Program-made: the position numbers and the translations under genes
Source of the DNA: Actinomycetes bacterium
Lineage (GTDB): Bacteria > Actinomycetota > Acidimicrobiia > Spongiisociales > JAHEDJ01
Assembly: GCA_024641245.1 (NCBI GenBank)
Contig: JAHEDK010000005.1
Coordinates: 1 to 64,000 of the forward strand
DNA length: 64,000 bases
Direction of reading: 5' to 3'
Notes under the pieces: model-generated
Told to the model about the DNA's origin: nothing
Database searches by the model: none
What the model saw: the letters and a program-made list of their open reading frames with translations, nothing else
In this document: positions 36,080 through 56,305 of the stretch, in pieces
How the letters are laid out: the number at the start of each line of letters is the position of its first letter
Numbering within the stretch: the first letter of the stretch is position 1

Positions 36080-36131
36080 TGAGCAGCGATCGTTATCCTC
36101 GCCGGTCGTGGCTCGTGCGACCGTGGGTGCG

Positions 36132-37004: not shown

Positions 37005-38060
37005 CTACGACTCGAGGAGCACGAAGTCGTCGAGATCGGCGCTGATGCGGACGATCTGGTCGATGGCGAGCGCCGGTTTGGCGGGCGAGTTGAGGATCAG
37101 CTCCGTATGCCCCAGCGCCACTCTGCACCGCTGGTGAGCCCCTATGAAGTGGCGGTCGACGACCCGGCCCTCCCCGAGCTGAAATCCTCCCGTATCGTCT
37201 GCCCGGAGGTGCTCGGGACGAATCGCCACCGTGACGGGAGTGTCCCGGATTGCCCGGCCGTGCACGGAGAACCTTCCAAACGTGGTCTCCACCTCGACTC
37301 TTCCCCCGGCGGTGGCCCTCGCCGTTCCATCGACCAGGTTGCTGTCACCCATGAAGGTGGCGGTGAAGCGTGTCGATGGGCGAAGGTACAGGCGATCCGG
37401 AGGCCCGTGATCTTCGATACGGCCGTCGCGGAGGACCACGATGGTGTCTGCGAGACTCATGGCCTCCTCCTGATCGTGCGTTACGTGGACGAATGTGGTT
37501 CCGAGCCTTCTCTGGATCTTGCTTAGCTCGTCCTGCATCTGACGTCGGAGCTTGAGGTCGAGGGCCCCCAATGGTTCATCGAGAAGCAGCACCCTGGGTT
37601 CGATCACCACCGCCCTGGCGAGTGCTATTCGCTGTCGCTGACCGCCCGACAGTGAGGCGATATGACGATCGCCGGTGCCCGGTAGTCCGACCAGTTCGAG
37701 CGCAGTTTCAACACGCCGGCGGCGTTCGTCACCCTTGATGCCGTGCATGGCGAGGCCGAATCCGATGTTCTTGCCGACGGTCATGTGCGGGAACAACGCG
37801 TAATCCTGAAAGACCGTGGTGGTGGGTCGCCGGACCGGCGGGAGGTCGGTCACGTCGGTGTCGTCGATGTGTATGCGCCCCTCTGTAGGCTCCGTGAAGC
37901 CGCCCAGAATGCTGAGCAGCGTCGTCTTACCGCTGCCGGATGGACCCAGGATGACCACATAGGAACCCGGCTCAACCACGAGATGCACGTCATCGAGCGC
38001 TGCCGTATCGCCGTAGCGTTTCGTGACACCATCGATGGTGAGCCTTGCGCCGAGCGTCAT
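37005..38060 (-). CDS. potA: Polyamine-type ABC transporter ATP-binding protein (PotA-like)
   Basis: 351 aa. Walker A GPSGSGKTTLL, the signature LSGGQRQRIALARA, Walker B RVLLLDEPLGALD and the His loop VHVTHDQEEA, then a C-terminal TOBE domain (about residues 270-345). It powers uptake of spermidine/putrescine-type cations or related compounds. It overlaps the PotC-like gene by 4 bases and is the last gene of a four-gene operon. Confidence 0.9.
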   Translation of the reverse strand: MTLGARLTIDGVTKRYGDTAALDDVHLVVEPGSYVVILGPSGSGKTTLLSILGGFTEPTEGRIHIDDTDVTDLPPVRRPTTTVFQDYALFPHMTVGKNIGFGLAMHGIKGDERRRRVETALELVGLPGTGDRHIASLSGGQRQRIALARAVVIEPRVLLLDEPLGALDLKLRRQMQDELSKIQRRLGTTFVHVTHDQEEAMSLADTIVVLRDGRIEDHGPPDRLYLRPSTRFTATFMGDSNLVDGTARATAGGRVEVETTFGRFSVHGRAIRDTPVTVAIRPEHLRADDTGGFQLGEGRVVDRHFIGAHQRCRVALGHTELILNSPAKPALAIDQIVRISADLDDFVLLES

Positions 38061-38845
38061 CGCTGTTTCTCCAGTCTCCGTCTGATGAGGGCATAGGTGA
38101 TGATGAGCATGCCGATCGACAGGGCGAACACGATCGTTCCCGCTGCGTTGGTCTTCGGATTGAGACCGGTCCGCAGGGCCGACCAGATCTCAACCGGGAG
38201 TGTCACATCGAACCGGGTCAGCAGGAGGGCGATGACGAACTCGTCCCAGGAGAGCGTGAAGGACAGTAGGAAGGCGGCGAGCAATCCGGGTGCGAGCAAT
38301 GGGACGGTTACGAGCGCGAGAACCCGTGATTCCCCGGCCCCGAGATCACGGGCAGCCTGTTCGAAGCGCGCTTGCTGCTCGTTCATCTGACTCATGATGA
38401 TGGCGAACGCCAACGGAAGATTGATCACAACATGGCCGATCGTGACCGTGATCAGCGATCGCCCGATTGCGAGCTCGCTGAATGTGAGAGAGAGGCCGAG
38501 TCCGATGACGAGATAGGAGACACCGAGGGGCGCAATCAAGAACGCCCGAAGTGCTTGGACGCCTTTGGGGCGGAATCTGGCCAGGCCGTAGGCAGCGAGG
38601 AATCCGAGCATCGTGCAGATCAATGCCGAGGTGATACCGACCAGAGCCGAGTTGCGCAACGCCGCCATCATCCGTCCGTCGGCGAACAACGCTTCATACC
38701 AGCGCAGGGATAGGCCGCGCAGGGGGGGAACGGCTACCGCCCCATCCTGGAAAGAGAAGAGGACGAGAGCCAGCACGGGCAGGAGGATGAAGCCGAAAAC
38801 GGCGACGACGTATGAGTAGCGGATCACACCGCCGACTCGTTTCAT
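38057..38845 (-). CDS. potC: ABC transporter permease (PotC-like)
   Basis: 262 aa from ATG 38845. Six hydrophobic helices, with the EAA loop FEQAARDLGAGESRVLALVTVPLLAPG. The start overlaps the PotB-like stop by 4 bases. With PotB it forms the membrane channel. Confidence 0.9.
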   Translation of the reverse strand: MKRVGGVIRYSYVVAVFGFILLPVLALVLFSFQDGAVAVPPLRGLSLRWYEALFADGRMMAALRNSALVGITSALICTMLGFLAAYGLARFRPKGVQALRAFLIAPLGVSYLVIGLGLSLTFSELAIGRSLITVTIGHVVINLPLAFAIIMSQMNEQQARFEQAARDLGAGESRVLALVTVPLLAPGLLAAFLLSFTLSWDEFVIALLLTRFDVTLPVEIWSALRTGLNPKTNAAGTIVFALSIGMLIITYALIRRRLEKQR

Positions 38846-39696
38846 TCCTGCTCCAGGGTGAGCCGCTTTGCCGACGCCGCGTAGACCACGATGACGACCA
38901 CGAGAAGAACAACGCTGAGCGCCGCAGCCAGCGGGAAGTCCCCCCGCCGCTGCACCTGGAGCATGATTGCCTGGGGTAGCAATAGTTCCTGGCCACCGCC
39001 GAGGATCTGCGGGGTAATGAAGTCGCCGATGGCGAGCACGAAGGTGAGGAAAGCGCCGACGACGACACCGGGCATGCTCAGCGGGAGCGTCACCCGAAGG
39101 AAGGTCATGGGAGACGAAGCGCCGAGGTCCCTGGCCGCCTTCCGGTACGAGTCGGGAATCTGGGTGAGGCTCGCATAGATAGTGAGGGAGGTGAGCATCG
39201 TGAAGAAGTGCACGAACCCGATGACGGTTGCCAGCCTTGTGTTGGAAAGCGTGATCGGCGACGAGATCAATCCGGTGGACGTCATAAGGTCGTTGACGAC
39301 ACCGTTCTTGCCCAGAACGAGCAGCCAGCTGTATGAGCGGACCACGTAAGAGGTCCAGAACGGGAGCACGGCCAGCAGCAGGAGCGGCCGTTGCCACCGC
39401 GGGGGCACGCGATACGCCAGGATGTAGGCGAACGGGTAAGCAACGAGAATGCTGACGACGACGGTGATGGCTACCACCTCGAGCGAATTCCGAAGCGCAT
39501 CGAAGAACACCGGTTCGTCGATGATCCGCCGGTAGTTGTACAAGCTGGGCGAAGTGTCGATCGCGCCGCCGACTCTCCGAAAGAGGCTGTAGGCGAACAC
39601 CATCCCCATCGGAGCGAGGAAGAAGAGACTCGTCCAGAGAAGGGCTGGACCCGCCAGGGTCCAGCCCTTCCTCGAAGATGTCTGTGCTGCCGTCAA
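38842..39696 (-). CDS. potB: ABC transporter permease (PotB-like)
   Basis: 284 aa, about six helices (first at residues 16-36, LLWTSLFFLAPMGMVFAYSL). The EAA loop is YRKAARDLGASSPMTFLRVTLPLSMPG. It overlaps both neighbours by 4 bases, so translation is coupled through the operon. Confidence 0.9.
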   Translation of the reverse strand: MTAAQTSSRKGWTLAGPALLWTSLFFLAPMGMVFAYSLFRRVGGAIDTSPSLYNYRRIIDEPVFFDALRNSLEVVAITVVVSILVAYPFAYILAYRVPPRWQRPLLLLAVLPFWTSYVVRSYSWLLVLGKNGVVNDLMTSTGLISSPITLSNTRLATVIGFVHFFTMLTSLTIYASLTQIPDSYRKAARDLGASSPMTFLRVTLPLSMPGVVVGAFLTFVLAIGDFITPQILGGGQELLLPQAIMLQVQRRGDFPLAAALSVVLLVVVIVVYAASAKRLTLEQE

Positions 39697-40796
39697 CCCT
39701 GCAGGAACCTTGTCCAGACATCGAGCATGGCCGCGTCGAGGTCGGCATCCGGGATGAAGTAGGGGTAGGAATTACCCACGAACCCTTCCTGTTCGTCCCA
39801 GCGGAGAATCTCCTTCTCGGCGTCGGTCAGCGTTGCTTTTGAGTTGGCCGGCATTGCCCAGTAACACGAGGACGTAGCCAGACGTGCCTGGCCCTCCGGG
39901 CTCACGATGTACTGAACGAACTTGGTGGCCAGGTCTTTCTTCTCCGAATCGGCGAACACCCCGATGGCTTGCTGCCAGCGAATTCCTCCTTGTTTCGGAA
40001 GGATCCAGTCGAAAGCCGGGTTCTCGGCGTTGAGAACGCCCGTCACGAACTCGCCGCCGCCGACGATGATGTCGACTTCGCCGGTGGCCAGTGCGGTCTG
40101 CGTGGTGACCACATCTCCGATCAAAGCGACATGCGGCTTGAGGTCCATCAAGCGTTGCTCGATGGCCGGGAGGTCGTCGACGGTCAGGTCGGCAGGCTTG
40201 ATGCCCAGGCTGATGGCTACCTGCTCCATCACAGGGATGTAGTAGTCGTACACGGCTATCCGCCCGTCGTAGTCCGGGTCCCACAGCGATTCGACGTCGC
40301 GCATGGCGTCCACCGAGACGTTGTCGCCGTTGAAGGCGATCGTGTTGTACCCGAACTTCTCAGGTACGGCGTAGAGAGTGTCATTCTGGTAGTGCGTACC
40401 GGGGAGATCGACGTCGGCGAAGAAATCATCCCACGGATAATCATCCGGGTTCAGTTCGGCAAGCAACCCGGCATCGACGATCCGCGGGACGTCCACCGAA
40501 TCGACCACGAACACATCCCATTCGCCGGGCTGTGACTGCTCGATGAGGCCAAGGGCAACGCCGGTGCCGTCGTAGTCTTTGACGTTGACCGTGACGTTGT
40601 TGGCCTCCTCGAAGGGTTGAAGCAACGCCGGATCGGTGTGATCGCACCACACCAGGGCGTTGAGCTCGGTGGGGACCTCGTCGGATATCGCACCGCCTTC
40701 GGTGGTGTCGGACTCTGCATCGCCGCAGGCGGAGGCGATGAGGGCGAAGGCGAGGAGTGCTCCGATCAACTGAAGGATCCCGCGGCGTGATTTCAT
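39693..40796 (-). CDS. potD: Polyamine-type ABC transporter substrate-binding lipoprotein (PotD-like)
   Basis: 367 aa from ATG 40796 (AGGAGG upstream). Signal peptide with lipobox ALIASAC, acidic linker, then the PotD/PotF fold (NALVWCDHTDPALLQPFEEANNVTVNVKDYDG, YAVPEKFGYNTIAFN, IIVGGGEFVTGVLN). PotD proteins recognise protonated amines through acidic pockets, but the ligand here could also be a guanidino compound. First gene of the operon. Operator 2 (40827-40842) lies directly upstream and faces the agmatinase-like gene. Confidence 0.85.
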   Translation of the reverse strand: MKSRRGILQLIGALLAFALIASACGDAESDTTEGGAISDEVPTELNALVWCDHTDPALLQPFEEANNVTVNVKDYDGTGVALGLIEQSQPGEWDVFVVDSVDVPRIVDAGLLAELNPDDYPWDDFFADVDLPGTHYQNDTLYAVPEKFGYNTIAFNGDNVSVDAMRDVESLWDPDYDGRIAVYDYYIPVMEQVAISLGIKPADLTVDDLPAIEQRLMDLKPHVALIGDVVTTQTALATGEVDIIVGGGEFVTGVLNAENPAFDWILPKQGGIRWQQAIGVFADSEKKDLATKFVQYIVSPEGQARLATSSCYWAMPANSKATLTDAEKEILRWDEQEGFVGNSYPYFIPDADLDAAMLDVWTRFLQG

Positions 40797-40826
40797 CTCT
40801 TCCTCCTGGAAACTGGACGGTGAGTT

Positions 40827-40842
40827 CCTATCGGCCGATAGG
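40827..40842. promoter_or_regulatory. TetR-type operator 2
   Basis: CCTATC GGCC GATAGG, a perfect 16-bp palindrome between the divergent PotD-like and ureohydrolase genes. Confidence 0.72.
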
Positions 40843-40970
40843 TTAGCGGGTGCATGATTCGGCCGGTTTCTTCCATCGGGCGAAAACCCCGCCGCCTGGC
40901 ATCGGTTGGTATTCTCCGAGTTTGTCGGGGGCCGACCGGCCCCCGCCACTCTTATGCTTGGAGGCACGGC

Positions 40971-41954
40971 GTGAATCCCGGAACACCCTTTGACGCCAGC
41001 CGGATCCACGCGTTTTCTTCCGGTTCAACGTTTGCGGGTGTTCCGGCTGCGACTCTCGATGACCTCCAGGGAGCACGCGCCGTGATAGTGGGGGCTCCGT
41101 TCGACTGGGGCACGTCGTATCGTCCCGGCACGAGGTTCGGGCCCAAAGCCATTCGGGAGAGTGACTACCTCGCTGCCGACGCATATCGGCCTCACCTGCC
41201 GACCGGTCTCAACGCGCTCGAGGGGGTAGTCGACATCGGAGATGTCGAGCTTCATCCGGGAGACATCGAGGGTGATCTCGATCGGATCGCCGCCACAATC
41301 GAGCGGATCAGCGGGGCCGGATCCATTCCCATCGTGCTGGGTGGCGATCACACCATCACATATGCCACCGCCACCGGCGTGGCCAGGACCTACGGTTTTG
41401 GTGAGGTCGCCCTGGTTCACTTCGACGCCCACGCTGACACGGGTGAGACGACCGGCTACGGATCCCTCTACGGTCATGGGACACCGATGCGCAGGTTGAT
41501 CGAATCGGGTGCAGTACCCGGGAGCAGGTTCGTCCAGATCGGCTTGCGCGGGTACTGGCCGGGCCCGGACACGGTTTCCTGGATGCGGGAACGGGGAATG
41601 CGCGGCTACATGATGACCGAGATCGAGGATCGGGGACTGAAGGCGGTCGTCGACGAGGCCGTCGCGCACGCCGGCGACGGCGCCGACGCAGTGTTCCTGT
41701 CGGTCGACATAGATGTTGTAGATCCGGGCATGGCGCCGGGAACGGGCACCCCTGAGCCGGGTGGTCTCACCTCTAGGCAGATCCTCGACACGGTGCGGAG
41801 GATGTCTCGCGAGCTGCGCATCGTCGGAGCCGACATCGTCGAAGTCTCACCGCCCTACGACGGACCGGGCGCCATCACGTCGTTTCTCGCCAACCGAATC
41901 GTCATGGAAGTCCTCAACGGCCTGGCCGAGCGAGCTGCCGGCGTGAGTTCATAG
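40971..41954 (+). CDS. Agmatinase-family ureohydrolase
   Basis: 327 aa from GTG 40971 (GGAGG upstream). The binuclear metal site is complete: GGDHTIT, HFDAHADTGE and SVDIDVVDPGMAPGTGTPEPGG. This family (agmatinase, guanidinobutyrase, arginase and the nickel-type guanidine hydrolases) releases urea from a guanidino compound. Several surrounding genes treat guanidino or polyamine compounds, so agmatine, 4-guanidinobutyrate or a similar compound is a likely substrate. It is divergent from the Pot operon across operator 2 and is followed by operator 3 and a TetR gene. Confidence 0.9.
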   Translation: MNPGTPFDASRIHAFSSGSTFAGVPAATLDDLQGARAVIVGAPFDWGTSYRPGTRFGPKAIRESDYLAADAYRPHLPTGLNALEGVVDIGDVELHPGDIEGDLDRIAATIERISGAGSIPIVLGGDHTITYATATGVARTYGFGEVALVHFDAHADTGETTGYGSLYGHGTPMRRLIESGAVPGSRFVQIGLRGYWPGPDTVSWMRERGMRGYMMTEIEDRGLKAVVDEAVAHAGDGADAVFLSVDIDVVDPGMAPGTGTPEPGGLTSRQILDTVRRMSRELRIVGADIVEVSPPYDGPGAITSFLANRIVMEVLNGLAERAAGVSS

Positions 41955-42064: not shown

Positions 42065-42700
42065 ATGACCGGACTTGAACTCGATTCCGAGGAGCTTCCC
42101 ACCCGGGAGCGCATTCTGCGCGAAGCGTCCAGGTTGTTTGGCAAGAAGGGGTATCACGGGACCTCAACGCGCAAGATCGCGGAGGCTGTGGACATCCGCC
42201 AGCCGTCGCTCTTCCATCACTTTCCCTCCAAGGACGCCATCATGGCTGAGCTAATCGACATCGATCTCGACGAAGCGGCGACGGTAGCGCAGGCCCAGGC
42301 GTCGGCCGACGGTTCTGCCGCACTCCGGCTCTACAAGTACCTGATCTGGGATATCTCCTTCATCTGCCGGTGTGCGTACGACCTGACCTCTGTCGAGTCG
42401 GTGCTCGACGATCCCGTCTTCGCAGACAAGCGAGCGCGCCACCAAACGCTCGTCGACGCCAGGCGATCGTTGATCGAAGAGGCGATTGACTCGGGAGAAT
42501 TCGTCAAGGTGGATCCTGAGGTGGCCGAGAGAGCCATCGTCTGGATTCTGAGGGGCGACATCAACGACACGGCCGGACAAGCCATCCCCGATGCCGACGT
42601 CGTCGCCGATCAGCTCGCTTCATTCATTCTGCGGGCACTTCTGTCCGACCCATCGCGACTCGACGAGATCAGAGTCGCGGCCGGAGAGAGCGTCGCGTGA
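42065..42700 (+). CDS. TetR-family regulator 1
   Basis: 211 aa. The N-terminal HTH (RILREASRLFGKKGYHGTSTRKIAEAVDIRQPSLFHHFPSK, split here by its turn) is followed by an all-helical ligand domain with Cys-containing FICRCAYDL. The recognition-helix segment QPSLFHHFPSK is nearly identical to that of regulator 2 (46658), so both probably bind CCTATC-N4-GATAGG. Operator 3 sits in its own promoter. It is convergent with the urease-like genes. Ligand unknown, probably a nitrogen compound metabolised by the cluster. Confidence 0.88.
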   Translation: MTGLELDSEELPTRERILREASRLFGKKGYHGTSTRKIAEAVDIRQPSLFHHFPSKDAIMAELIDIDLDEAATVAQAQASADGSAALRLYKYLIWDISFICRCAYDLTSVESVLDDPVFADKRARHQTLVDARRSLIEEAIDSGEFVKVDPEVAERAIVWILRGDINDTAGQAIPDADVVADQLASFILRALLSDPSRLDEIRVAAGESVA

Positions 42701-42730: not shown

Positions 42731-44410
42731 TCAGGCGAAGTGGTACCGCTGCCCGAGGGGGACCTCCGTGACCGGCGCCAGCCGGGCCGGGCGGCCATCG
42801 ATCAGCACCGGACCGTCGTCATCAGGGACCTCGACCTTCGGTACGGAGGCGTTGGCCGCCATTTGCGCCCGGGTCAGCCGGCGCGTGTTGCGGACGGTCT
42901 CCACGTGGCGGTCGGGAAGAGTGTCGGAGATGCCGGTCTCTGCTGCTGCCTCCGAAACGAACACGGTCGCCAGCCTCCCCGGAGCTTCGCCCAGTCCACC
43001 GAACATCGGTCCGTACATCCTGGGTTGGCCGCTCCGAATGGAGGCACTGCCATCACCGGAGGCACCCCAGGCGATGAAGCCTCGCTTCACCACCGTTTCT
43101 GGTTTCGTGCCAAAGAATTCAGGACGCCAGAGAACGAGGTCGGCGAGCTTGCCCGGTTCCAGAGAGCCAACCTGCGAACTCAATCCATGGGCGATGGCAG
43201 GGTTGATCGTGTATTTGGCCAGATAGCGGCGAACCCGCTCGTTTTGCGGTCCCTCCGCAGCGACTTCCCGCCCCATCACGTCGGCGAGTTGCCAGGTCCG
43301 GCGAACCACTTCCCCACCTCGTCCCATCCCGAGCGAATCCGAATTGATGATGCTGATCGCTCCCTGTTCGTGCAGCCAACTCTCGGCCTCCATCGTGCGC
43401 GCCCTGACTCGTGATCTCGTGGCGGCGACATCGGAAGCCACTGCGGCGTTCTGGTGGTGGACGATCATGGCCATGGGGACGATCTCGTCGAGCGCGTTGA
43501 TTCCGAACGGCACAGTTGGCGTGGTCGAGGAAGCGAGAACATGAGGTTCCGAGACCAGTTCGATCGAGTTGGGCACATGCCCACCGCCGGAGCCCTCCAC
43601 GTGATACGCGTGTACCGTTCGACCATCAATGGCATCGAGAGTGTCGGAGAGCAAACCCGACTCGTTGAGCGAATCGGTGTGCATCGCGACAGCCACGTCG
43701 TGCTTGTCCGCCACCGTCAAGCAGCAGTCAACGACGGACGGAGATCCTCCGAAGTCCTCGTGGATCTTCAGCCCGGCTGCTCCTGCGCTCAGTGCCTGCT
43801 CGAGGGCCGATGGATCGTACGCCCCCCGGGCCAGGAACGCTACGTTGAGCGGAATTGCTCGCCAGGCCTCGATCATTCTTTGGATGTGGGCACGTGGATT
43901 GACGCCGACGTCCCATACGCCTCCGGATCCCATGCCCACGATCGTCGTGATACCCGAGCCGAGTAACACGGGGAGCACAGCCGGAGAGGAGAGGTGCACG
44001 TGTGAATCGACTCCACCGGGAGTTGCGATCATCCCCTCGCCGGGCAGCAAGCCGGTGTGGGGTCCGATGACCAAGTCGACATTGTCCATCACGTCTGGAT
44101 TGCCGGCCCGACCTATTCCGACGATCCGCCCATCCTTGATACCGATGTTCCCTTTGAAGACACCGAGGAGAGGATCCATGATTACTACGTTGCTGATCAC
44201 GAGATCGAGCATCGAGGCGGAGCCCGGCCGGCTCTGCACAAGCATCCCGGCCTGTGTCGTCTTGCCGCATCCAGCGAGAACCTCGTCGCCGTATGAGGTC
44301 TCATCCCTTTCGACCTCCACGAGGATCGAGGTATCGCCGAGTCGAATCCGGTCTCCGATGGTGGGGCCGTAGAGCGTCCCGTAGAGCTTCCGGTCGACTT
44401 CACCGGGCAT
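42731..44410 (-). CDS. Urease alpha subunit-like protein (divergent UreC)
   Basis: 559 aa from ATG 44410 (GAGGAG upstream, overlapping the UreAB stop). Dinickel-site ligands of urease are kept: GGVDSHVHLSSP, the carbamylated Lys in GLKIHEDFGG, His in AMHTDSLNESG, GGGHVPN and Asp in INSDSLGMGRGGE, plus the flap Arg. Differences: the mobile-flap Cys (CHH in ureases) is Val (IVHHQN), the CPQQ after HxH is SPAV, and the usual CTPGPW loop is replaced by NPRAH. It hydrolyses urea or, more likely, a related amide. UreDEFG genes are not in the window. Confidence 0.85.
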   Translation of the reverse strand: MPGEVDRKLYGTLYGPTIGDRIRLGDTSILVEVERDETSYGDEVLAGCGKTTQAGMLVQSRPGSASMLDLVISNVVIMDPLLGVFKGNIGIKDGRIVGIGRAGNPDVMDNVDLVIGPHTGLLPGEGMIATPGGVDSHVHLSSPAVLPVLLGSGITTIVGMGSGGVWDVGVNPRAHIQRMIEAWRAIPLNVAFLARGAYDPSALEQALSAGAAGLKIHEDFGGSPSVVDCCLTVADKHDVAVAMHTDSLNESGLLSDTLDAIDGRTVHAYHVEGSGGGHVPNSIELVSEPHVLASSTTPTVPFGINALDEIVPMAMIVHHQNAAVASDVAATRSRVRARTMEAESWLHEQGAISIINSDSLGMGRGGEVVRRTWQLADVMGREVAAEGPQNERVRRYLAKYTINPAIAHGLSSQVGSLEPGKLADLVLWRPEFFGTKPETVVKRGFIAWGASGDGSASIRSGQPRMYGPMFGGLGEAPGRLATVFVSEAAAETGISDTLPDRHVETVRNTRRLTRAQMAANASVPKVEVPDDDGPVLIDGRPARLAPVTEVPLGQRYHFA

Positions 44411-45107
44411 CGTTCTGCTCCTCGTGGGCGTATCCTCGACGGATCGCATCTCTGACCGTCTCGTCTGCGTCGACCTCATCGAGCGGGCCGTCGATCAGAC
44501 CGCCGAATCCCCAGACTTCCCGCCGGCCGCCGAGTGGAATCAGGCTGACTTTCTTGCGTTCCCGTGGTTCCCATCTCACCGCCGTTCCGGCCGGAATGTC
44601 GAGCCGCATGCCGAGCGCCGCCCTCCGGTCGAAGCTCAGACTCCGGTTCGCCTCCGAGAAGTGGAAGTGCGAAGTGACTTCGATCGGAGCGCTCGACAGG
44701 TTCTGGACGATGATCCCGAGCGGAGTCCGTCCGGCATTGATCGATACCGACCCCGTCCCAGGGATGACCTCGCCCGGGACGGCGCGATCGTTTCGATCAA
44801 GGGCCGGCCCGAAGGGAAGCTCGACGACCACGAGCGTGGTGCCGCTCGGGAAGAGCGCGTCGATTTCGATCCTGCCGATGATCTCCGGGACGCCCTCCAT
44901 GACATCATCGCGGTTCAACAGCGTTTCAGCTCGGGCAATGACCTCCCGGAGAGGCAGTCCGTCCCACGCCAATTCGAGAATCTCGTCACAGATGAGGGCA
45001 ATGGCCTCAGGGGCGTTCAGCTTTCGACCTCTGTCGCGTCGACGTCGGGCCAGTTCGGCCAGGGTGAAGATGGTCAGACGATTGAGTTCTTTGCCTGTCA
45101 AGCGCAT
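44400..45107 (-). CDS. Urease gamma-beta fusion subunit-like protein
   Basis: 235 aa. Residues 1-100 are UreA-like (LTGKELNRLTIFTLAELARRRR, NAPEAIALICDEILE, RDDVMEGVPEIIG); residues 115-220 are UreB-like (PGEVIPGTGSVSINAGR, NLSSAPIEVTSHFHFSEAN, FDRRAALGMRLDIPAGTAVRWEP). Fused gamma-beta subunits occur in other bacterial ureases. It overlaps the alpha-subunit gene and lies 18 bases after the amidase, so amidase, UreAB and UreC are one operon reading from operator 4. Confidence 0.88.
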   Translation of the reverse strand: MRLTGKELNRLTIFTLAELARRRRDRGRKLNAPEAIALICDEILELAWDGLPLREVIARAETLLNRDDVMEGVPEIIGRIEIDALFPSGTTLVVVELPFGPALDRNDRAVPGEVIPGTGSVSINAGRTPLGIIVQNLSSAPIEVTSHFHFSEANRSLSFDRRAALGMRLDIPAGTAVRWEPRERKKVSLIPLGGRREVWGFGGLIDGPLDEVDADETVRDAIRRGYAHEEQNDAR

Positions 45108-45125: not shown

Positions 45126-46565
45126 TCAGGCCCGATCAGCGGGTCGGTCTATGCCGAGGGCGGGACGATGTTGCTCGAAGATATTGCCGAACGATGATTC
45201 CAATCCGAGGGCTACCCGGAAAGGCACGGGATCAGCATCGGGTGGGCCGACGATCTGCATCCCGATCGGCACACCCGTCCTCGGTGCGAATCCGATCGGC
45301 AGGTTGACCACCGGGAGCTTGCCGAGGATGTTGAACGGATAGGTCATCACCAGGTCGAGCATATCCCCGAGATCGCCGGTGCTTCCCGAATCGGGATGAC
45401 CGAGGTCGGCCGGGATCGAAGTGGTGACGAGTGTCGGGCATATCAAGGCTTCGTAGCCGGCGTGGAACACGGTGCGTTGAAGCCCGGCATACATCTCATC
45501 TCCGTAGCGCCAGCTCTCCATCCACTCCTCGACGGATACAGGCGCTCTCCCGAAGAACTCGCGCATGTATGGAGTCAGCCGGTCGTCACTCGTGTCCGGG
45601 ATGGATCCTCGGAGAATGGCGCCCGACTGAAAGGAGAGGTGGGTCATCGCGATGTCCGCGGCTCGACCTGTCCAGTCCAGTTCTACGGTTTCAACCGTTG
45701 CGCCGAGTCCGCGCAGCCGGCCGGCCGCAGCCTCGAGCGCGTCGACGATCTCCGATTCGGGTGAGAAGTAACCAAGGTCGGGGCTCATCGCGATTCGCAT
45801 GCCGGACACCGGTGGAAACTGCGACGGTAGCTCGAGCGGGGGAGCGGAGTACATGTCGCCGTCCAATGGACCCGCAATCGCGTTCTCGAGGAGCACGACG
45901 TCCGCCACCGTGCGGCCGAGTGGCCCAGAGGCGGCGTAGGGCTCGCGATTCCACGGCCAATACTCGGGAACCCGACCCCAGGGAGGCTTGAAGCCGACGA
46001 CACCGTTCATCGACGCCGGAATCCTGATCGACCCACCTATATCGCTGCCGGTCGCCAGGATGGAAGATCCTGCTGCCAGGCTCGCTCCCGAGCCACCGGA
46101 AGATCCACCGCTGGTCATAGCCAGATTCCACGGGGAACGAGTGATCCCGTGGAGAAACGACCAGGTGACGATGGCCATCGAGAACTCCGGCGTCGTGGTG
46201 TGCGCGTGAACGATCCCACCGGCATCGAGTATCCGCTGGGTGATTGGGTCGGTGCCGGATGCGATTTCGTCCTGGAAAAGCAGCGATCCCTGCGTCCACC
46301 GGCGGCCGTCGATGCGCGGCTCGTCTTTGGCGGCGATCGGGAGCCCCTCGAGCGGTCGGGCCGTGCCGGCGGCGTATCGTTCGCCCGCCTCCCTGGCCCG
46401 GTCGAGAGCTTCCTCGAAGTACGTGTCGACGAAGGCGTTGATCCAAGGTTCGGTCGCTTCGGCTCTCGTGATGATGGCCTCGAGCAATTCGAGCGGTGAG
46501 AGTTGGCGAGCTTGGAACCCGGCCAGCGCTTGCACCGCGCTTAGATAGGCAAGTTCGTTGGACAT
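45126..46565 (-). CDS. Amidase signature family hydrolase
   Basis: 479 aa. The Ser-cisSer-Lys catalytic set is present: Lys in GLPIAAKDEPR, the glycine/serine loop MTSGGSSGGSGASLAAG and the nucleophile Ser in GSDIGGSIRIPAS. The family cuts amide bonds of aryl or alkyl amides, ureas and carbamoyl compounds (allophanate hydrolase is a relative). It is first in the amidase-UreAB-UreC operon; operator 4 lies about 63 bases upstream of its start. The product may feed the urease-like complex. Confidence 0.9.
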   Translation of the reverse strand: MSNELAYLSAVQALAGFQARQLSPLELLEAIITRAEATEPWINAFVDTYFEEALDRAREAGERYAAGTARPLEGLPIAAKDEPRIDGRRWTQGSLLFQDEIASGTDPITQRILDAGGIVHAHTTTPEFSMAIVTWSFLHGITRSPWNLAMTSGGSSGGSGASLAAGSSILATGSDIGGSIRIPASMNGVVGFKPPWGRVPEYWPWNREPYAASGPLGRTVADVVLLENAIAGPLDGDMYSAPPLELPSQFPPVSGMRIAMSPDLGYFSPESEIVDALEAAAGRLRGLGATVETVELDWTGRAADIAMTHLSFQSGAILRGSIPDTSDDRLTPYMREFFGRAPVSVEEWMESWRYGDEMYAGLQRTVFHAGYEALICPTLVTTSIPADLGHPDSGSTGDLGDMLDLVMTYPFNILGKLPVVNLPIGFAPRTGVPIGMQIVGPPDADPVPFRVALGLESSFGNIFEQHRPALGIDRPADRA

Positions 46566-46657: not shown

Positions 46658-47329
46658 CTAGACCGAACGCTCGTCGTAAAGGGGGAGCAGCACCATTGCG
46701 TCCCGTCTCACCCCTTCGAGTGCATCGGGCTCGGCCAGGAGGCTGCGGAGAATGAGAGTGGCCGCCTCATCCGGATGCGAATGTCGCTTGAGATGGTCGG
46801 TGGTGGCGAAGAGGTTGGCCCGCGCCAGCAAGGCGCTCACCATCTGCTGTGCGAGCCAGGAGTCGCCCTCGGCAAACTCGCCGGACTCCTGACCGGAGCG
46901 AATCAACGAATGGGTCAGGTCGTCAAACTGGTTGACCAGATCTTGGAAGAGTGCCAGGTCGGGGTCATTGAGGACTTCGTAGCTGATGTGGGCCCTCATG
47001 TCGTAGGGGGAGTTGACGATTCTGGTGATCTCGCCACAGATCATGGCGTAGAGCTTGGCCGCCGGTGAAGCGTCGGCCTCCACCAGCCGCTCGAGGCCTG
47101 CAACTGCGGGAAGCAGGTCATGCTTGTACAGCTCCTCGGCGATCGCCCGTTTAGTGGGGAAGTGAAAGAACAGTGAGGGCTGGCTGATCCCGACGGCGGC
47201 CGCGATCTCTCTGGTAGTCGTTCCGTGGTACCCGTTGACCGCCAGCAATCGGGAAGCTTCGATCAGGATGCGCTCGCGGGTATCCGGAGGATCGACTGCG
47301 GTCGTCTCGTCGTTCTCTGTGCTGTTCAT
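46658..47329 (-). CDS. TetR-family regulator 2
   Basis: 223 aa from ATG 47329. HTH segment LLAVNGYHGTTTREIAAA, turn, then VGISQPSLFFHFPTKRAIAEEL, very like regulator 1. The helical C-terminal domain binds an unknown effector. Operator 5 lies between it and the divergent amidinotransferase gene, so it probably represses both. Two regulators sharing one operator type could give stepwise control by different effectors. Confidence 0.88.
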   Translation of the reverse strand: MNSTENDETTAVDPPDTRERILIEASRLLAVNGYHGTTTREIAAAVGISQPSLFFHFPTKRAIAEELYKHDLLPAVAGLERLVEADASPAAKLYAMICGEITRIVNSPYDMRAHISYEVLNDPDLALFQDLVNQFDDLTHSLIRSGQESGEFAEGDSWLAQQMVSALLARANLFATTDHLKRHSHPDEAATLILRSLLAEPDALEGVRRDAMVLLPLYDERSV

Positions 47330-47391
47330 GTCCACCACCGAGCGAATCCCATTGTCTATCCGAAGGCCCACCGGCCACCTTCGACAGTCTA

Positions 47392-47438: not shown

Positions 47439-48572
47439 ATGACCCGGGTGAACTCGTGGAACGAGTGGGACCCGCTCAAGCACGTGGTCGTTGGTCGTAT
47501 CGACAGCCGGATGGTAGGTGCACCCGAGGCCGGCATGGTTCTCGATCTCCCGGGAGCCGGTCTGAGGCCGGGCGAGTGGCGCCAGATACCCGATCATTAC
47601 GTGGACAGGGCCACCGCGCAGATGGAGAACTTCGCTTCTCTGCTCGCCGGGCGGGGCATCACAGTCGACCGACCGACGTCGATGGACGATCACCAGCACG
47701 TTCGCACTCCGGACTGGGAGTGCAACCACATGTTTGGGACGATGCCGCCCCGCGACATCCTGATGGCGTACGGCAACGAGATCCTCGAGGCGACCATGTC
47801 GCAGCGATCCCGCTGGTTCGAGTTTCTTGCCTACAAGCCGCTCCTCGAGCGCTACTTCAAGGAGGATCCCAACTTCTTGTGGGAGGCCGCTCCCAAGCCG
47901 CGCTTGTCAGATGAATCCTATGTCCCCGGCTACTGGGACGACTTCTTCGGCACATGGTCAAACGAGGAACTGACGGCCCGCATGGAGCGGTTTGAGTTTC
48001 ATCTGACTGAAAAGGAACCGCTCTTCGATGTTGCCGACGCCATGCGATTCGGCAAAGACATCTTCATCCAGCATTCGGCTCCCTCCAACAGAGCGGGCAT
48101 CGACTGGTTCAAACGCCATTTCGAAGCGCGGGGTTTCCGCGTGCATGTTCTGGCATTTGGAGGGACTGTTCAACCCTGGCACATCGACGTGACGCTCGTT
48201 CCGCTGCGGCCCGGTCTGATCATCGTGAACCCGAACCATCCCTCCCTCGTTCCCGAGTTCTACGAAATGTTCAAGATCAACGACTGGGAGGTTGTTGAGG
48301 CGGCTCCCGTTTCGGGGGCCAAGCAGCCGCCCTACAGTATGTGCCACGAGTCGCTCGGCTACAACGTGTTCTCGCTCGATCCGAACACCGTGTGCGTGGA
48401 GTCGAACGAAGTTCAATTCATGGATCAACTCGACGGGCTCGGTCTTGACGTCGTCCCCATCGATTTCATCGATGTGTCGATGTTCGGCGGCGCCTTGCAC
48501 TGCGCAACTCTCGACGTTGAGCGGGACGGCGACATGGAGGATTACTTCCCGAACCAGATTCCCGGATTCTGA
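47439..48572 (+). CDS. Amidinotransferase family protein, second copy
   Basis: 377 aa, the same length as the copy at 32392 and colinear throughout. Catalytic Asp in FGKDIFIQHSAPSNRAGIDW, His in WHIDVTLVPLRPG and Cys in FGGALHCATLDVERDG. Differences near the active site (WHIDVTLV for MHIDATFI; NVFSLDPNTV for NTLLLDEHTI) suggest a different amino acceptor or donor. It opens a long operon with an aminotransferase, agmatine-deiminase-like and nitrilase-like enzymes and a peptide-type transporter. Confidence 0.88.
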   Translation: MTRVNSWNEWDPLKHVVVGRIDSRMVGAPEAGMVLDLPGAGLRPGEWRQIPDHYVDRATAQMENFASLLAGRGITVDRPTSMDDHQHVRTPDWECNHMFGTMPPRDILMAYGNEILEATMSQRSRWFEFLAYKPLLERYFKEDPNFLWEAAPKPRLSDESYVPGYWDDFFGTWSNEELTARMERFEFHLTEKEPLFDVADAMRFGKDIFIQHSAPSNRAGIDWFKRHFEARGFRVHVLAFGGTVQPWHIDVTLVPLRPGLIIVNPNHPSLVPEFYEMFKINDWEVVEAAPVSGAKQPPYSMCHESLGYNVFSLDPNTVCVESNEVQFMDQLDGLGLDVVPIDFIDVSMFGGALHCATLDVERDGDMEDYFPNQIPGF

Positions 48573-48621: not shown

Positions 48622-50031
48622 ATGGCGGACTACATGAGCACCGAGACCCCGGCCGTTGTCGAACGCGACAAGCGCCACCATGTTCATCCATATCAGGTGT
48701 TCGACTCGTTCGCCGAGCATGGGGCACTTCCCATAGCCTCCGGGCACGGTGCCTTCATCACCGACACCGACGGCAAGCGATATGTGGATGCGGTCGGCGG
48801 TCTGTGGTGCACGAACATCGGGTTGGGACGCGAGGACATGGTCGAAGCTATAGCCGACCAAGTGAGACGACTCGCCTATTCCAACCCGTTTGTCGACATG
48901 ACGCATGTGCCGGCGGCTGATCTGGCGACCAAACTCGCTGAGCTCGCTCCCGGTGACTTGAACCACGTGTTCTTCAGTACGGGTGGTTCGACCGCTAACG
49001 ATCTCGCCTACCGGATCATTCAGTTCTATCAAGCAGTACGCGGCAAAACCGAAAAGCGCCACGTGATATCTCGCGTCGACGCCTATCACGGCCAGACGTA
49101 TGCGGCCGTGTCGATCGGAGGCAAGCCGGGTGACCGGATCGATGAGTTCGAGTTTCTCGACAACATCCATCATCTGAGCTCACCAAACCAGTATCGGTAC
49201 GGGCGCCATCTCTCCGAGAAGGAATTCGGCGACCAGTTGTATGAGGAGTTCGAGAACAAGGTGGCCGAACTCGGCGGGGCCGAGAAGGTCGCCGCCTTCT
49301 TCGCCGAGCCGATCATGGGTGCAGGTGGCGTGGTGCCTCCACCCGATAACTACCTGAAATGCATATGGGAGTTCTGCCGGGACAACGACATCATCTATGT
49401 TTCGGATGAAGTCGTCACCGGTTTCGGGCGTCTGGGCGAGTGGTTCGCTTCCGAGAAGATCTTCGGTATCAAACCCGACATCATCACCTCCGCCAAGGGT
49501 CTCACGTCCGGATACTTGCCACTGGGCGCAACGATCTTCTCGGATCGGATCTTCGATGTGATCGCCGAACCCGGACACCATCGATATTTGCCACTGGGGT
49601 TTACGTACGGTGGTCATCCGGTCTCCTGCGCAGCTGCTCTCAAGAACATCGAGATAATCGAGAACGAGGGCATCCTCGAGCACGTCCGTGAGATTGGGCC
49701 CTACCTCATGGAGCAGTTGGAGACTCTGCGGGAGCTGCCGATGGTCGGTGACGTCCGGGGCTCCCACCTCATGGTGTGCATCGAGTTCGTGCGTGACGTC
49801 GAGACCGGTGAGGCATATCCAGACGAAATCGACATCGGCAAGCGCGTGTCGAACGAGTGCGATGCCCGCGGCTTGATTGTGCGACCGGTCGAGAACCTCA
49901 ACATCATGTCGCCGCCGCTCATCATCACACGGCAGGACATCGAGTTCATCGTCGACACGTTGCGGGAGTCGATCCCGCTGGCCTATGCAGCGGCCGAGAA
50001 GATGATGGCCGAGATCGGGAAGGGGACATAG
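48622..50031 (+). CDS. Class III aminotransferase, second copy
   Basis: 469 aa. PLP-fold signatures: VDAVGGLWCTNIGLGREDMVEA, VFFSTGGSTANDLAYRI, AEPIMGAGGVVPPPDNYL, VSDEVVTGFGRLGEWFAS and the Lys in ITSAKGLTSGYLPLGA. The length and the VTRVDAYHG-type insertion resemble amine:pyruvate and polyamine transaminases. AAAGGA precedes the ATG. It follows the amidinotransferase, repeating the pairing at 32.4-34.8 kb. Product: an aldehyde from a terminal amine. Confidence 0.92.
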   Translation: MADYMSTETPAVVERDKRHHVHPYQVFDSFAEHGALPIASGHGAFITDTDGKRYVDAVGGLWCTNIGLGREDMVEAIADQVRRLAYSNPFVDMTHVPAADLATKLAELAPGDLNHVFFSTGGSTANDLAYRIIQFYQAVRGKTEKRHVISRVDAYHGQTYAAVSIGGKPGDRIDEFEFLDNIHHLSSPNQYRYGRHLSEKEFGDQLYEEFENKVAELGGAEKVAAFFAEPIMGAGGVVPPPDNYLKCIWEFCRDNDIIYVSDEVVTGFGRLGEWFASEKIFGIKPDIITSAKGLTSGYLPLGATIFSDRIFDVIAEPGHHRYLPLGFTYGGHPVSCAAALKNIEIIENEGILEHVREIGPYLMEQLETLRELPMVGDVRGSHLMVCIEFVRDVETGEAYPDEIDIGKRVSNECDARGLIVRPVENLNIMSPPLIITRQDIEFIVDTLRESIPLAYAAAEKMMAEIGKGT

Positions 50032-50061: not shown

Positions 50062-51687
50062 ATGACCGCCGTGACGGTCTTCCACAGCGGGATGGTCTAC
50101 ACCGCGAATGCTGCAGGGACCCGGACGCAGGCAGTGGCAGTCGGCCACGGCCGCATCTTGGCCGTGGGCAGAGATGACGAAGTGCGAGCCGCCTATCCGA
50201 GCGCCGAACTGCTGGACCTCGGAGGCCGCACGATGGTCCCCGGTTTCATCGACGCTCACAACCACTATCTCGCTACGGGGGAGGGGCTGGCAGCCATCGA
50301 TGCTCGCTTTCCGGGGGTTGCCTCGCCCGATGAACTGGTTGCAGCCGTAGCCGTAGCAGCCGAAGATCGAGCGCCCGGGCGATGGCTGTCCGGTTTCGGG
50401 TTCGATCACGCCAAATACGATCGGTGGCCCACCCGGTGGGACCTCGATCAAGCGACGACCGACCATCCTGTCGCCATCCGTCACGTCTCGGGCCATTACC
50501 TACTGGTCAACTCCGTCGCCCTGGCCGCCGCCGGGGTCAACGACACAACGCCGGATCCAAAAGGCGGCGCTTTTGTCCGCGACGAGGCCGGACGCCTCAC
50601 CGGGCTGTGCCTCGATGCGGCGATGGGCATCGTCGAGCCGGTAGCAGTCGACATCGGTTCACATGGCCCGAACTTCCACGTGCAGGCTTCTATGGACGAG
50701 CTGGTGGCTGCCGTCGACCGGGCCGGCCGGGCCTACGTGGCAGCCGGCCTGACGACGGTGTGTGACGCCCAGGTCACCAAACGTGAAATGGCTGCCTACC
50801 GCCGGGCCCGCGCGCTGGGTTCCTGGTGGGTGCGGGTGGCTTGCATGCCTCTCTCCAACCAACTCGCCGAGTACGGTGCCGCCGGCCTGGCCAGTGGGTT
50901 TGGAGACGACATGCTCTGGTTGGGGCCGATGAAGTTCTACATGGACGGCTCCCTGATCGGTGGCACTGCGGTCTTCGAGGAACCGTATGGAGAACGCGGG
51001 GAGTTCGAGGGGATCTTCTACTGGCAGCCCGAGGAGATGCAGTCGATGATCGCCGAAGCGCATCGCCAGGGCTGGCAGGTAGGAGTGCACACTCAGGGAG
51101 ACCGCGCCATTGAGGCGACCCTCGATGCCATCGAAGGAGCTATGGATTCCAATTCACGCCCGGATCCGCGCCACCGAATAGAGCATTGCGGCCTTCCGAC
51201 GCCGGATCAGATCGCCCGCATGGCGCGCCTGGGTGTGGTGGCAATCAACCAGCCCAACTATCTGCACGATCAGGGGGACGAGTTCCTCGTCAGGCTCGGT
51301 GAGCGGGCTCATCGGCTCCAGCCTCTGCGAGCCGAGCTCGAGGCCGGAGTGATGATCGCTCTGAGCAGTGACGCCGACGTCACGACCTTCCGGCCGCTGG
51401 AGACCATCACCAACGCGGTGATGCGCACGACCATGGGAGGTCGAGCGATCGGCGCCGACCAAGCGTTGACCGTCGAGGAGGCGATTCGGGCCCATACCAT
51501 CGACGCGGCATACTCCATCTTCGTCGAAGACCGGCTCGGATCCATCGAACCCGGCAAGCAGGCCGATCTGGTCGTCATCGACGGTGACCCCTTCTCGGCT
51601 TCGCCCAACGAGATCCGTGATCTCGACGTTTGGATGACCATGATCGGCGGAAAGACGGTCTTCGGTCCGGGCGGGCGGATCCAGTGA
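50062..51687 (+). CDS. Amidohydrolase (YtcJ-like)
   Basis: 541 aa; GAGAGG precedes the ATG. Metal-site pieces: GFIDAHNHYLAT (HxH), VHTQGDRAIEATLDAIE, RHRIEHCGLPT and SSDADVTTF. YtcJ-type members of the metal-dependent hydrolase superfamily hydrolyse N-acyl, amide or cyclic amide bonds; most have unknown substrates. It overlaps the next gene by 4 bases (GTGA). A paralogue ends the same operon at 59137. Confidence 0.85.
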   Translation: MTAVTVFHSGMVYTANAAGTRTQAVAVGHGRILAVGRDDEVRAAYPSAELLDLGGRTMVPGFIDAHNHYLATGEGLAAIDARFPGVASPDELVAAVAVAAEDRAPGRWLSGFGFDHAKYDRWPTRWDLDQATTDHPVAIRHVSGHYLLVNSVALAAAGVNDTTPDPKGGAFVRDEAGRLTGLCLDAAMGIVEPVAVDIGSHGPNFHVQASMDELVAAVDRAGRAYVAAGLTTVCDAQVTKREMAAYRRARALGSWWVRVACMPLSNQLAEYGAAGLASGFGDDMLWLGPMKFYMDGSLIGGTAVFEEPYGERGEFEGIFYWQPEEMQSMIAEAHRQGWQVGVHTQGDRAIEATLDAIEGAMDSNSRPDPRHRIEHCGLPTPDQIARMARLGVVAINQPNYLHDQGDEFLVRLGERAHRLQPLRAELEAGVMIALSSDADVTTFRPLETITNAVMRTTMGGRAIGADQALTVEEAIRAHTIDAAYSIFVEDRLGSIEPGKQADLVVIDGDPFSASPNEIRDLDVWMTMIGGKTVFGPGGRIQ

Positions 51688-52691
51688 GCTTCCGAATGCC
51701 GGCCGAATGGGAGCCCCACGAGCGAACCCTGATGGCCTGGCCGGTGCACCACTCGTGGGGAGATCACCTCGACCGTGCTCGGCGGGCGTATGCCGATGTT
51801 GCAAACGCCATCATCGACTTCGAGCCGCTCACGATGCTCGTCAAACCGGGCGTGGGCGTCGGAGAACGTCGCCTCCTCAGCAGTGGGATCGACCTGGTCG
51901 AGATCCCCTACGAGTCGGCTTGGCAGCGCGACTCCGGGCCTCTCGTCGTGGTCGACGACCAGGGATCCCGTCGCGGCATCGACTTCCGCTTCAACGCCTG
52001 GGGTGAACGCTATCTGCCTTACGAACAGACCGCCGCAGCCGCCGGGGCGATCCTGTCCCACCTTGGCATCGAGCGGGTCCCCTCATCGATGGTCCTCGAA
52101 GGAGGCTCAATTACCGTCGACGGTGAGGGCACGCTCATCACAACCGAGCAATGCTTACTCAACCCCAACCGCAATAAGGAGTTGACGAGAGGAGACATCG
52201 AACTAGAACTCGGGGAGAAGCTGGGCATCAAGAAGGTCATCTGGCTCCCCGTTGGCATTGCCGCCGACTTCGCCACCGACGGACACGTCGACGCGGTGTG
52301 CACCTTCGTGGCCCCGGGGGTCGTGCTCCTCCAAGGCTGCACCGACCCCCACGATCCCGACTTCGAGCGCATGGCGGCCAACCGGGTGGCGCTCGATTCG
52401 CAGACCGACAGTTCCGGACGCTCGTTGCAGGTCTTCGAGCTCCCGGACTTGCCAAGCGAGCCGTTCGACCGAACCGACATCGGAGTGGCCTACGCCAACC
52501 TCGTCCTCGTCAACGGGGCTGTGATAGTTGGGGTCGGCGGATACCCAACCGACGATGAGGCCATGGAGGTCATCGGCGAAGCGTTCCCCCGACGCGCGGT
52601 GGTCGGTGTCGATGCGAGGATCATCTCGTACGCGGGCGGCGGTCCTCATTGCACGACGATGCAGATACCAGCGGGAGGACCCACACAATGA
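51684..52691 (+). CDS. Agmatine deiminase family protein
   Basis: 335 aa from GTG 51684 overlapping the previous stop (ATG 51696 is an alternative). AguA-type motifs: PAEWEPHERTLMAWP, WQRDSGPLVVVD, VLEGGSITVDGEGTLIT, DGHVDAVCTFV and the catalytic Cys in GGGPHCTTMQIP. The reaction is hydrolysis of the guanidino group of agmatine (or a relative) to N-carbamoylputrescine and ammonia through a Cys-amidino intermediate. The next gene encodes the carbamoylputrescine-amidase-like enzyme, as in the AguA-AguB route. Confidence 0.9.
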   Translation: MSFRMPAEWEPHERTLMAWPVHHSWGDHLDRARRAYADVANAIIDFEPLTMLVKPGVGVGERRLLSSGIDLVEIPYESAWQRDSGPLVVVDDQGSRRGIDFRFNAWGERYLPYEQTAAAAGAILSHLGIERVPSSMVLEGGSITVDGEGTLITTEQCLLNPNRNKELTRGDIELELGEKLGIKKVIWLPVGIAADFATDGHVDAVCTFVAPGVVLLQGCTDPHDPDFERMAANRVALDSQTDSSGRSLQVFELPDLPSEPFDRTDIGVAYANLVLVNGAVIVGVGGYPTDDEAMEVIGEAFPRRAVVGVDARIISYAGGGPHCTTMQIPAGGPTQ

Positions 52692-53629
52692 CCGACTTCC
52701 AGGTGATCACGAGAATCGATGACGTGCTTCCCTCACCGGCTCGGCACGAGGCGCCGAGCGGTCGGGGTCTGTTGCGAATTGGGGCCGTGCAGTGTGCGTG
52801 GGACTCCGATCCCGACACCCATCAGGCGACTCTGGCGGAAGGGATTCGGCTGGCGGCGTCGCAGGAGGCCAGGGTGATATGCCTGCAGGAACTCACGCTG
52901 TCGCCCTACTTCGCGGTTACCCCCGACGACATCGAAACGGCCGCCAGCCGGCTCGAGGACATTGACGAGGGTCCGACCGCGACCTTCGCCAGACGCATGG
53001 CGGCGGAGACCGGCGCCACGATTCATGCGAGCCTCTATGAGCGAGATCCCGGCGGGCTCGGTTTCAACACCGCCATCGCAGTGGATTCGGCCGGAGAACT
53101 GCTGGCTCGCACGCGCAAGGTACATATTCCCCAATTTCCGCTCTATCACGAAGATCGCTACTTCGCGCCGGGCGACAGCGGGTTCCCGGTGATCGACATA
53201 AAAGGAGCCGGCTTCGGGTTTCCGACTTGCTGGGATCAGTGGTATCCCGAGCTGGCCCGCATCTACTCGCTCGAAGGTGCGGAGATCCTCGTCTATCCCA
53301 CGGCGATCGGCATCGACCCGGACGAACTCGACTACGACACTCAACCCATGTGGCGGCACACCATCACCGCCAACGGCATGGCCAACGCAACGTTCATGGT
53401 GGTGATCAACCGTATTGGGACCGAAGGTCCGACCACCTTCTACGGGTCATCGTTCATCTCTGATCCGTACGGACGGGTCATTGTCGAAGCCCCGCGGGAT
53501 GAACCGGCGGTGCTGGTGGCGGACCTCGATCTCGACCAACGAAGGGACTGGATGACCTTCGGTCTCTTCGACACCCGGCGCCCGGATCAGTATCAACGAT
53601 TGGTGCAGTCGGGCGGGGGCGGTGCGTGA
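52688..53629 (+). CDS. N-carbamoylputrescine amidase-like nitrilase-superfamily hydrolase
   Basis: 313 aa from ATG 52688 (ATGA overlap). The Glu-Lys-Cys triad is visible: CLQELTLSPYF, TRKVHIPQFPLYHEDRYF and GFPTCWDQWYPELARIYSL. These agree closely with AguB, which converts N-carbamoylputrescine to putrescine, CO2 and ammonia. The N-terminal extension of about 35 residues before LRIGAVQCAW is longer than in typical AguB. Coupled with the agmatine-deiminase-like gene, it completes one guanidino-degrading branch. Confidence 0.88.
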   Translation: MTDFQVITRIDDVLPSPARHEAPSGRGLLRIGAVQCAWDSDPDTHQATLAEGIRLAASQEARVICLQELTLSPYFAVTPDDIETAASRLEDIDEGPTATFARRMAAETGATIHASLYERDPGGLGFNTAIAVDSAGELLARTRKVHIPQFPLYHEDRYFAPGDSGFPVIDIKGAGFGFPTCWDQWYPELARIYSLEGAEILVYPTAIGIDPDELDYDTQPMWRHTITANGMANATFMVVINRIGTEGPTTFYGSSFISDPYGRVIVEAPRDEPAVLVADLDLDQRRDWMTFGLFDTRRPDQYQRLVQSGGGGA

Positions 53630-55300: not shown

Positions 55301-55307
55301 CACGGGT

Positions 55308-55343
55308 GGGGTGGACGCCGGGCTACCGTCCGGCGTCCACCCC
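55308..55343 (+). terminator. Strong hairpin between binding-protein and permease genes
   Basis: A perfect 14-bp GC-rich stem (55308-55321 with 55330-55343) closes an 8-base loop, with no T run. It probably stabilises the upstream message or attenuates read-through, raising binding-protein levels over the permeases. Confidence 0.6.
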
Positions 55344-55360
55344 TCAACGGGAAGGTAGAT

Positions 55361-56305
55361 GTGGGGCGGTTTGGCTTCGTAGCCAGGAGGTTGTTGCAGA
55401 CCATTCCGATGCTGTTCGGCATCGTGCTGGTGGTCTTTCTCGTACTGCAAATCACTCCCGGCGATCCGGCCCGGCAGATTGCCGGCCTTCGGGCAAGCGA
55501 AGCCGACCTCGAGGAGGTTCGCCAGGAACTGGGATTGAACGATCCGGTCATCGCTCAGTACGGACGGTACGTCGGCAACTTGCTCCAGGGCGACCTGGGC
55601 TACTCGTACAAATCACGCAAACCCGTGGCCGACATCATCGGCGACCGTATCTCTGTGACGGTTTGGCTTCTCACGACCGGCGTACTGATGACCTTGCTGA
55701 TCAGCGTTCCACTGGGGGTAGTCGCCGCCCTTAGGAAAGACCGGGTGGCGGATCACGCCATACGTGGCTTCGGGTTGCTCGGGTTGAGCATGCCGGCTTT
55801 CTGGACCGGAGTCATCCTGCTGCTGCTTGTGGCGCTTCCGACCGGGTGGTTCCCGGCGGGCGGATTCGGGGATACCTTTGGTGAGAAACTTCGGGCAATC
55901 TTCCTACCGGCATTGACCTTGGCAATCGGCTCATCGCCGTTCATCATCCGCGGGTTGCGCGCCGCCATGATCTCTGTGATGGAGTCCGACTACATCTCCA
56001 CCGCTCGATCCGTCGGCGTTGCCGGTGGACGACTGGTCCGCCGCTTCGTGCTCCGCAACGCGGCGGGACCAGGCGTCACCTTGCTGGCGATCGAGATCGG
56101 CTACCTCTTGTTCGGAGCCGTCGTCATCGAGACGACCTTCGCGCTGCCGGGGGTCGGCCAGGGCCTGGTCATCGCCGCGCAGGGACGGGACCTACCTTCG
56201 GTCCAGGGTTACACGCTGCTGTTCGCGCTGGTGGTCGTCGCGGTCTACCTTCTCTCAGATGTCGTGACCGCGATGCTCGATCCGCGGGTGGAGATCGACA
56301 CATGA
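55361..56305 (+). CDS. ABC transporter permease (DppB-like)
   Basis: 314 aa from GTG 55361 (AAGG upstream). N-terminal FVARRLLQTIPMLFGIVLVVF and LQITPGDPARQI are typical of DppB/OppB. The EAA loop is YISTARSVGVAGGRLVRRFVLRNA. About six helices. It overlaps the next permease by 4 bases. Confidence 0.92.
   Translation: MGRFGFVARRLLQTIPMLFGIVLVVFLVLQITPGDPARQIAGLRASEADLEEVRQELGLNDPVIAQYGRYVGNLLQGDLGYSYKSRKPVADIIGDRISVTVWLLTTGVLMTLLISVPLGVVAALRKDRVADHAIRGFGLLGLSMPAFWTGVILLLLVALPTGWFPAGGFGDTFGEKLRAIFLPALTLAIGSSPFIIRGLRAAMISVMESDYISTARSVGVAGGRLVRRFVLRNAAGPGVTLLAIEIGYLLFGAVVIETTFALPGVGQGLVIAAQGRDLPSVQGYTLLFALVVVAVYLLSDVVTAMLDPRVEIDT

Follow-up and report, generated by a model that had tools for sequence, protein, structure and literature searches.

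A pair of genes in a 64,000-nucleotide stretch of acidimicrobial DNA (contig JAHEDK010000005.1, positions 1 to 64,000; hereafter the window) encodes homologues of all three urease subunits and falls in a distinct clade of the family, characterized by fused gamma and beta subunits, a shortened pocket loop, a flap Val and the lack of accompanying accessory genes. We refer to the clade of the window alpha-subunit relative as UreC2 and to its fused partner as UreAB2. In our judgement the chances are about even that UreAB2-UreC2 is a urease-fold binuclear metallohydrolase that acts on a monosubstituted urea and is matured without UreD, UreF and UreG; we infer its substrate, metal and products, the substrate from gene context. 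Urease is generally regarded as a one-substrate, chaperone-dependent enzyme that usually contains nickel. The open-access papers yielded no report of a non-urea function for this clade, of a link between AguA and urease, or of a urease relative acting on a compound other than urea.

Results and discussion

The UreAB2-UreC2 genes and their surroundings

The window genome assembly comprises 2.7 Mb in 71 contigs and is 87.6% complete. The minus-strand order is amidase, fused ureA-ureB and ureC relative (Table 1); the amidase gene, with which the initial annotation had the operon start, does lie ahead of UreAB2 on that strand. UreC2 matches solved ureases over nearly its full length (E about 1e-155) and UreAB2 matches them with an E value of 2e-52. 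Translation of UreC2 is likely to start at Met24 (position 44410), as a stop codon precedes that Met in the copy from the same genus; read from there, the gene overlaps the stop of UreAB2 by 11 bases. The dN/dS of 0.12 between the window gene and the same-genus copy indicates purifying selection. UreC2 proteins are labelled urease in databases; the window protein reaches 630.5 bits on TIGR01792, below the 680-bit equivalog cut-off for urease alpha subunits, and passes the broader subfamily model NF009686. Its domains are urease and amidohydrolase only, with no carbon-nitrogen hydrolase (nitrilase) fold, unlike AguB. The structure predicted from an 11-row alignment was a poor model (mean pLDDT 53).

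Table 1. Genes of the UreAB2-UreC2 region in the window
Feature	Position	Strand	Remarks
PotABCD-type ABC transporter (ATPase, two permeases, binding protein)	37005..41009	-	nearest curated models are polyamine transporters, scores below cut-offs
Ureohydrolase (agmatinase/arginase family)	41121..41954	+	just under agmatinase cut-off; longest ORF from 40854
Second TetR-family regulator	42065..42700	+	convergent with UreC2; adjacency kept in relatives
UreC2, urease alpha-subunit relative	42731..44479	-	582 aa, intact ORF; likely start 44410
UreAB2, fused urease gamma and beta subunits	44400..45107	-	235 aa, intact ORF
Amidase-signature amidase	45126..46565	-	directly upstream of UreAB2; kept beside UreABC2 in relatives
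TetR-family regulator	46658..47371	-	
Amidinotransferase related to glycine amidinotransferase and HsvA	47439..48572	+	no Pfam hit
Class III aminotransferase	48622..50031	+	
Amidohydrolase (Amidohydro_3)	50062..51687	+	
Agmatine-deiminase-like protein (AguA-like)	51690..52691	+	catalytic Cys present; longest ORF from 51630
AguB-like carbon-nitrogen hydrolase	52649..53629	+	overlaps AguA
Peptide-type ABC transporter (SBP_bac_5, two permeases, two ATPases)	53729..59140	+	kept in relatives' cluster
Second Amidohydro_3 amidohydrolase	59101..60765	+	kept in cluster
Isochorismatase-like cysteine hydrolase	60779..61420	-	immediately precedes UreAB2 in two relatives

Much of this region is a large cluster conserved in Acidimicrobiia, which unites the amidinotransferase, aminotransferase, amidohydrolases, AguA, AguB, peptide-type transporter, amidase, UreABC2 and isochorismatase-like hydrolase. 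Beyond the Pot transporter, positions 34958-37001 of the window hold an alanine dehydrogenase gene followed by one for a polysaccharide deacetylase/PuuE-like protein. An alanine dehydrogenase likewise lies near the conserved cluster in a related locus (L188), where a second amidinotransferase copy occurs; another copy is probably present elsewhere in the window.

A distinct and mostly actinobacterial clade

In a quick maximum-likelihood tree built from 62 UreC rows, a branch with an SH-aLRT of 100 sets 27 UreC2 rows apart, and features that had been read from a single locus proved to be clade-wide. The members, mostly actinobacterial, come from Acidimicrobiia, Streptomyces-like genomes of family f37, families f26, f53, f57 and f67, and a single contig of Thermomicrobiaceae. 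Identity between the window protein and the Streptomyces-like copies is about 47%. A plasmid of Streptomyces sp. NBC_00841 (L194, 7064-13730) carries genes for a PucR-type regulator, UreAB2, a UreC2 that is 56% identical to that of the window, an Amidohydro_3 protein and an MFS transporter. Two further loci (L142 and L143) represent a third kind of ureC, with Gly for Ala366 and another loop where the Ala170 segment would be; they keep the flap Cys together with UreD, UreF and UreG and branch outside UreC2.

Judging by gene order, the Streptomyces-like UreC2 loci are probably the SCO5526-type second ure(AB)C locus, and the clade appears to include this known locus, with which it shares a fused ureAB, a ureC and the absence of adjacent accessory genes. 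A 2008 paper (PMC2492869) recorded this ure(AB)C-only second locus in Streptomyces as a urease cluster; no mention of a link to AguA or of a changed pocket was found in it.

Conserved catalytic residues in an altered pocket

The active sites of 32 UreC2 sequences were compared with those of 54 other ureases, that of H. pylori included, using S. pasteurii numbering. The alignment shows that the HxH motif, the bridging Lys, two further His and an Asp are kept in the window protein and its relatives, as are His222, Asp224, the flap His323 and Arg339, and these residues are invariant or nearly so across the 32 sequences. The metal ligands that the initial annotation had reported as retained were thus all found, and the catalytic flap His and Arg can be added to them.

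Its list of altered segments stood in most points. The flap Cys322 is indeed replaced by Val, in 32 of 32 UreC2 sequences and also in 3 of the 54 ordinary ureases, and the CPQQ segment does read SPAV (SSPAV following HVH), a position at which the H. pylori urease itself has SPQQ. Flap Val and SPAV, being partly found in ordinary ureases, were each rejected as a diagnostic of UreC2. The CTPGPW loop had been described as missing: the Ala170 position is gone, whereas the loop itself (GPADGTNATTCTPG) is not wholly lost but about four residues shorter in the window protein. Ala170 is missing through this shortening in all 32 UreC2 sequences (one partial row ends short), and Ala366 is Gly in every row of that set that covers the position; UreC2 members linked to nonribosomal peptide synthetase (NRPS) genes retain Ala366. 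Leu319, Phe335 and Val321 are mostly substituted. At the level of sequence, the diagnostic of UreC2 is the combination of the short loop, Gly for Ala366 and the flap Val. Because the carbonyls of Ala170 and Ala366 hold the NH2 groups of urea in urease, these changes should give UreC2 a different or larger pocket.

UreC2 shares the three-part subunit homology, the metal ligands and the catalytic His and Arg with the nickel ureases (H. pylori 1e9y, Klebsiella 1fwa, S. pasteurii), but differs from them in the short Ala170 loop, the replacement of the flap Cys by Val and of Ala366 by Gly, the lack of UreD, UreF and UreG and a score below the equivalog cut-off. A urease with iron as cofactor, not a nickel enzyme, exists in Helicobacter mustelae (PMC11541087). 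This UreA2B2 enzyme (3qga) has the urease fold without nickel and may serve as a maturation model for UreC2, although the window protein is no closer to it than to the nickel ureases (506 vs 522 bits).

Absence of accessory genes

The lack of ureD, ureF and ureG pointed out for the locus extends to the whole window genome assembly. Among genomes holding only UreC2, no UreD was found in the 16 searched and neither UreG nor UreF in 19 (the window genome and 18 others), five of which are 95-98% complete. Genomes that also hold an ordinary or third-kind ureC do have UreD, UreG and UreF, and the UreC2-bearing Streptomyces-like genomes also hold an ordinary urease with its accessory genes. Beside the ureC genes themselves, UreD, UreF or UreG occurred at 0 of 32 UreC2 loci versus 54 of 55 other ureC loci, some flanks being short; the single exception among the 55 ends at a contig edge.

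Linkage to agmatine-deiminase-like genes

An AguA-like gene lies within 2 kb of UreC2 at 12 of 32 loci, as against 0 of 55 other ureC loci, and is absent from that distance at the remaining 20. At the genome level, AguA was present in 15 of 22 UreC2 genomes and in 33 of 374 others; once the Streptomyces-like genus is set aside, it was found in 7 of 14 UreC2 genomes (Fisher P = 1e-4, a value that ignores kinship). The order is ureAB2-ureC2-aguA in Streptomyces-like genomes, often with a TetR gene next, aguA-ureAB2-ureC2 in G144 and ureC2 followed by aguA in G342, and in G358 aguA and ureAB2-ureC2 are divergent. Since gene order varies by lineage, the linkage is not one inherited arrangement. 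At one Streptomyces-like locus (L129), several AguA-like genes surround ureAB2-ureC2, together with a peptide-type ABC transporter.

Alignment to plant agmatine deiminase showed the deiminase Cys, His, Asp and Glu to be kept in the AguA-like proteins. Their scores do not reach the agmatine deiminase equivalog cut-off, which leaves agmatine uncertain as their substrate. An AguA-like gene that does not adjoin UreC2 often has an AguB-like nitrilase (11 cases) or an amidase (4 cases) as its neighbour, and the pairing survey contained no AguA-like gene with both AguB and an adjacent UreC2 (P = 0.004, again ignoring kinship); no AguB above the curated cut-off was found among 27 genomes checked. From this alternative pairing, UreC2, the AguB-like nitrilase and the amidase look like interchangeable enzymes for one step, the hydrolysis of a ureido product. 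UreC2 would have the proposed product, putrescine, in common with the AguA-AguB pathway, to which the AguA-like gene also ties it, whereas AguB itself has the nitrilase fold and no relationship to urease.

Other genomic contexts of UreC2

In one genus, ureAB2, ureC2 and pot genes form an operon whose PotA scores above the polyamine subfamily cut-off. A hydantoinase/allantoinase-like gene stands directly upstream of UreAB2-UreC2 at L035, and its enzyme would also give a ureido acid. Streptomycetaceae plasmids of Embleya, Streptomyces and Kitasatospora (L195, L196, L197 and L198) carry UreAB2-UreC2 within a conserved NRPS cluster; three of these are annotated, with UreC2 as a urease, and the remaining one, which lacks annotation, is similar. 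The cluster also includes an FkbM-methyltransferase NRPS, an APH kinase, a weak match to a B12-binding domain and a 2OG-Fe(II) oxygenase, a setting in which the splitting of free urea would have no evident use. At L037 a beta-eliminating lyase gene (Pfam Beta_elim_lyase; 2760-4139) immediately follows ureC2.

Proposed function and alternative explanations

The initial annotation had suggested an enzyme for a substituted urea or a guanidino product. The former is favoured by the clade-wide context, namely the AguA-like deiminases, the hydantoinase-like gene, the polyamine-type transporter, the NRPS clusters and the absence of adjacent accessory genes; the guanidino half finds little support. 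In the mechanism we propose, the ureido substrate would be supplied by the product of a nearby gene, in most cases a guanidine deiminase resembling agmatine deiminase, which would yield N-carbamoylputrescine or a close analogue. UreC2 would carry a binuclear metal centre with a carbamylated Lys, assembled without UreD, UreF and UreG; it would bind the ureido end and convert R-NH-CO-NH2 to an amine, ammonia and CO2, and room for the substituent could come from the short Ala170 loop, the changed Ala366, Leu319 and Phe335 and the flap Val. N-carbamoylputrescine is the best candidate substrate for the Streptomyces enzymes. For the window clade a second ureido compound of the guanidino pathway is as likely: the window already has an AguA-AguB pair, so that the local substrate may be such another compound.

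Every residue needed for urea hydrolysis remains in UreC2, which counts against a substituted urea and suits a true urease that loads its own metal (perhaps iron, zinc or manganese) and, in the window, splits the urea released by the ureohydrolase. The iron-cofactored urease is a precedent, and the ureohydrolase gene, only 0.8 kb from UreC2, is also near it in the same-genus copy. However, no ureohydrolase was found beside UreC2 outside the window genus in the loci compared, and urea supply by this enzyme was rejected as a general role. Moreover, the deiminase partner frees no urea from agmatine, the Streptomyces-like genomes have an ordinary urease besides UreC2, and no member retains the Ala170 position; we consider a true urease unlikely, at perhaps one chance in four. 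Direct action on something other than a urea, be it a guanidino or amidino compound, a different amide or a cyclic substrate, appears more doubtful still. The amidinotransferase, deiminase and ureohydrolase of the window cluster would fit it, and many kinds of amide bond are attacked by members of this amidohydrolase superfamily, but the guanidino group would already have been converted by the AguA-like partner, and His222, Asp224, Gly280 and Arg339, which hold the carbonyl and NH2 of urea, are kept.

Two other explanations concern maturation and activity. Accessory genes in unassembled parts of the window genome would agree with its incompleteness, and another chaperone set might load nickel; with UreG and UreF absent from 19 of 19 UreC2-only genomes, several of them nearly complete, we hold this to be improbable. 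A degenerate, inactive urease, which the several active-site changes might suggest, is the least probable reading of all, given ligands that are invariant across a deep clade and the low dN/dS.

Conclusion

With roughly equal chances for and against, the widespread UreC2 clade may be a separate urease-fold family for substituted ureas, matured without nickel chaperones and serving both the breakdown of agmatine or polyamines and nonribosomal peptide pathways. If this is true, many "urease" annotations need correcting, UreC2 supplies a missing step of agmatine use in Streptomyces, and the clade shows how the urease fold switched substrate and how its metal centre is formed unaided.
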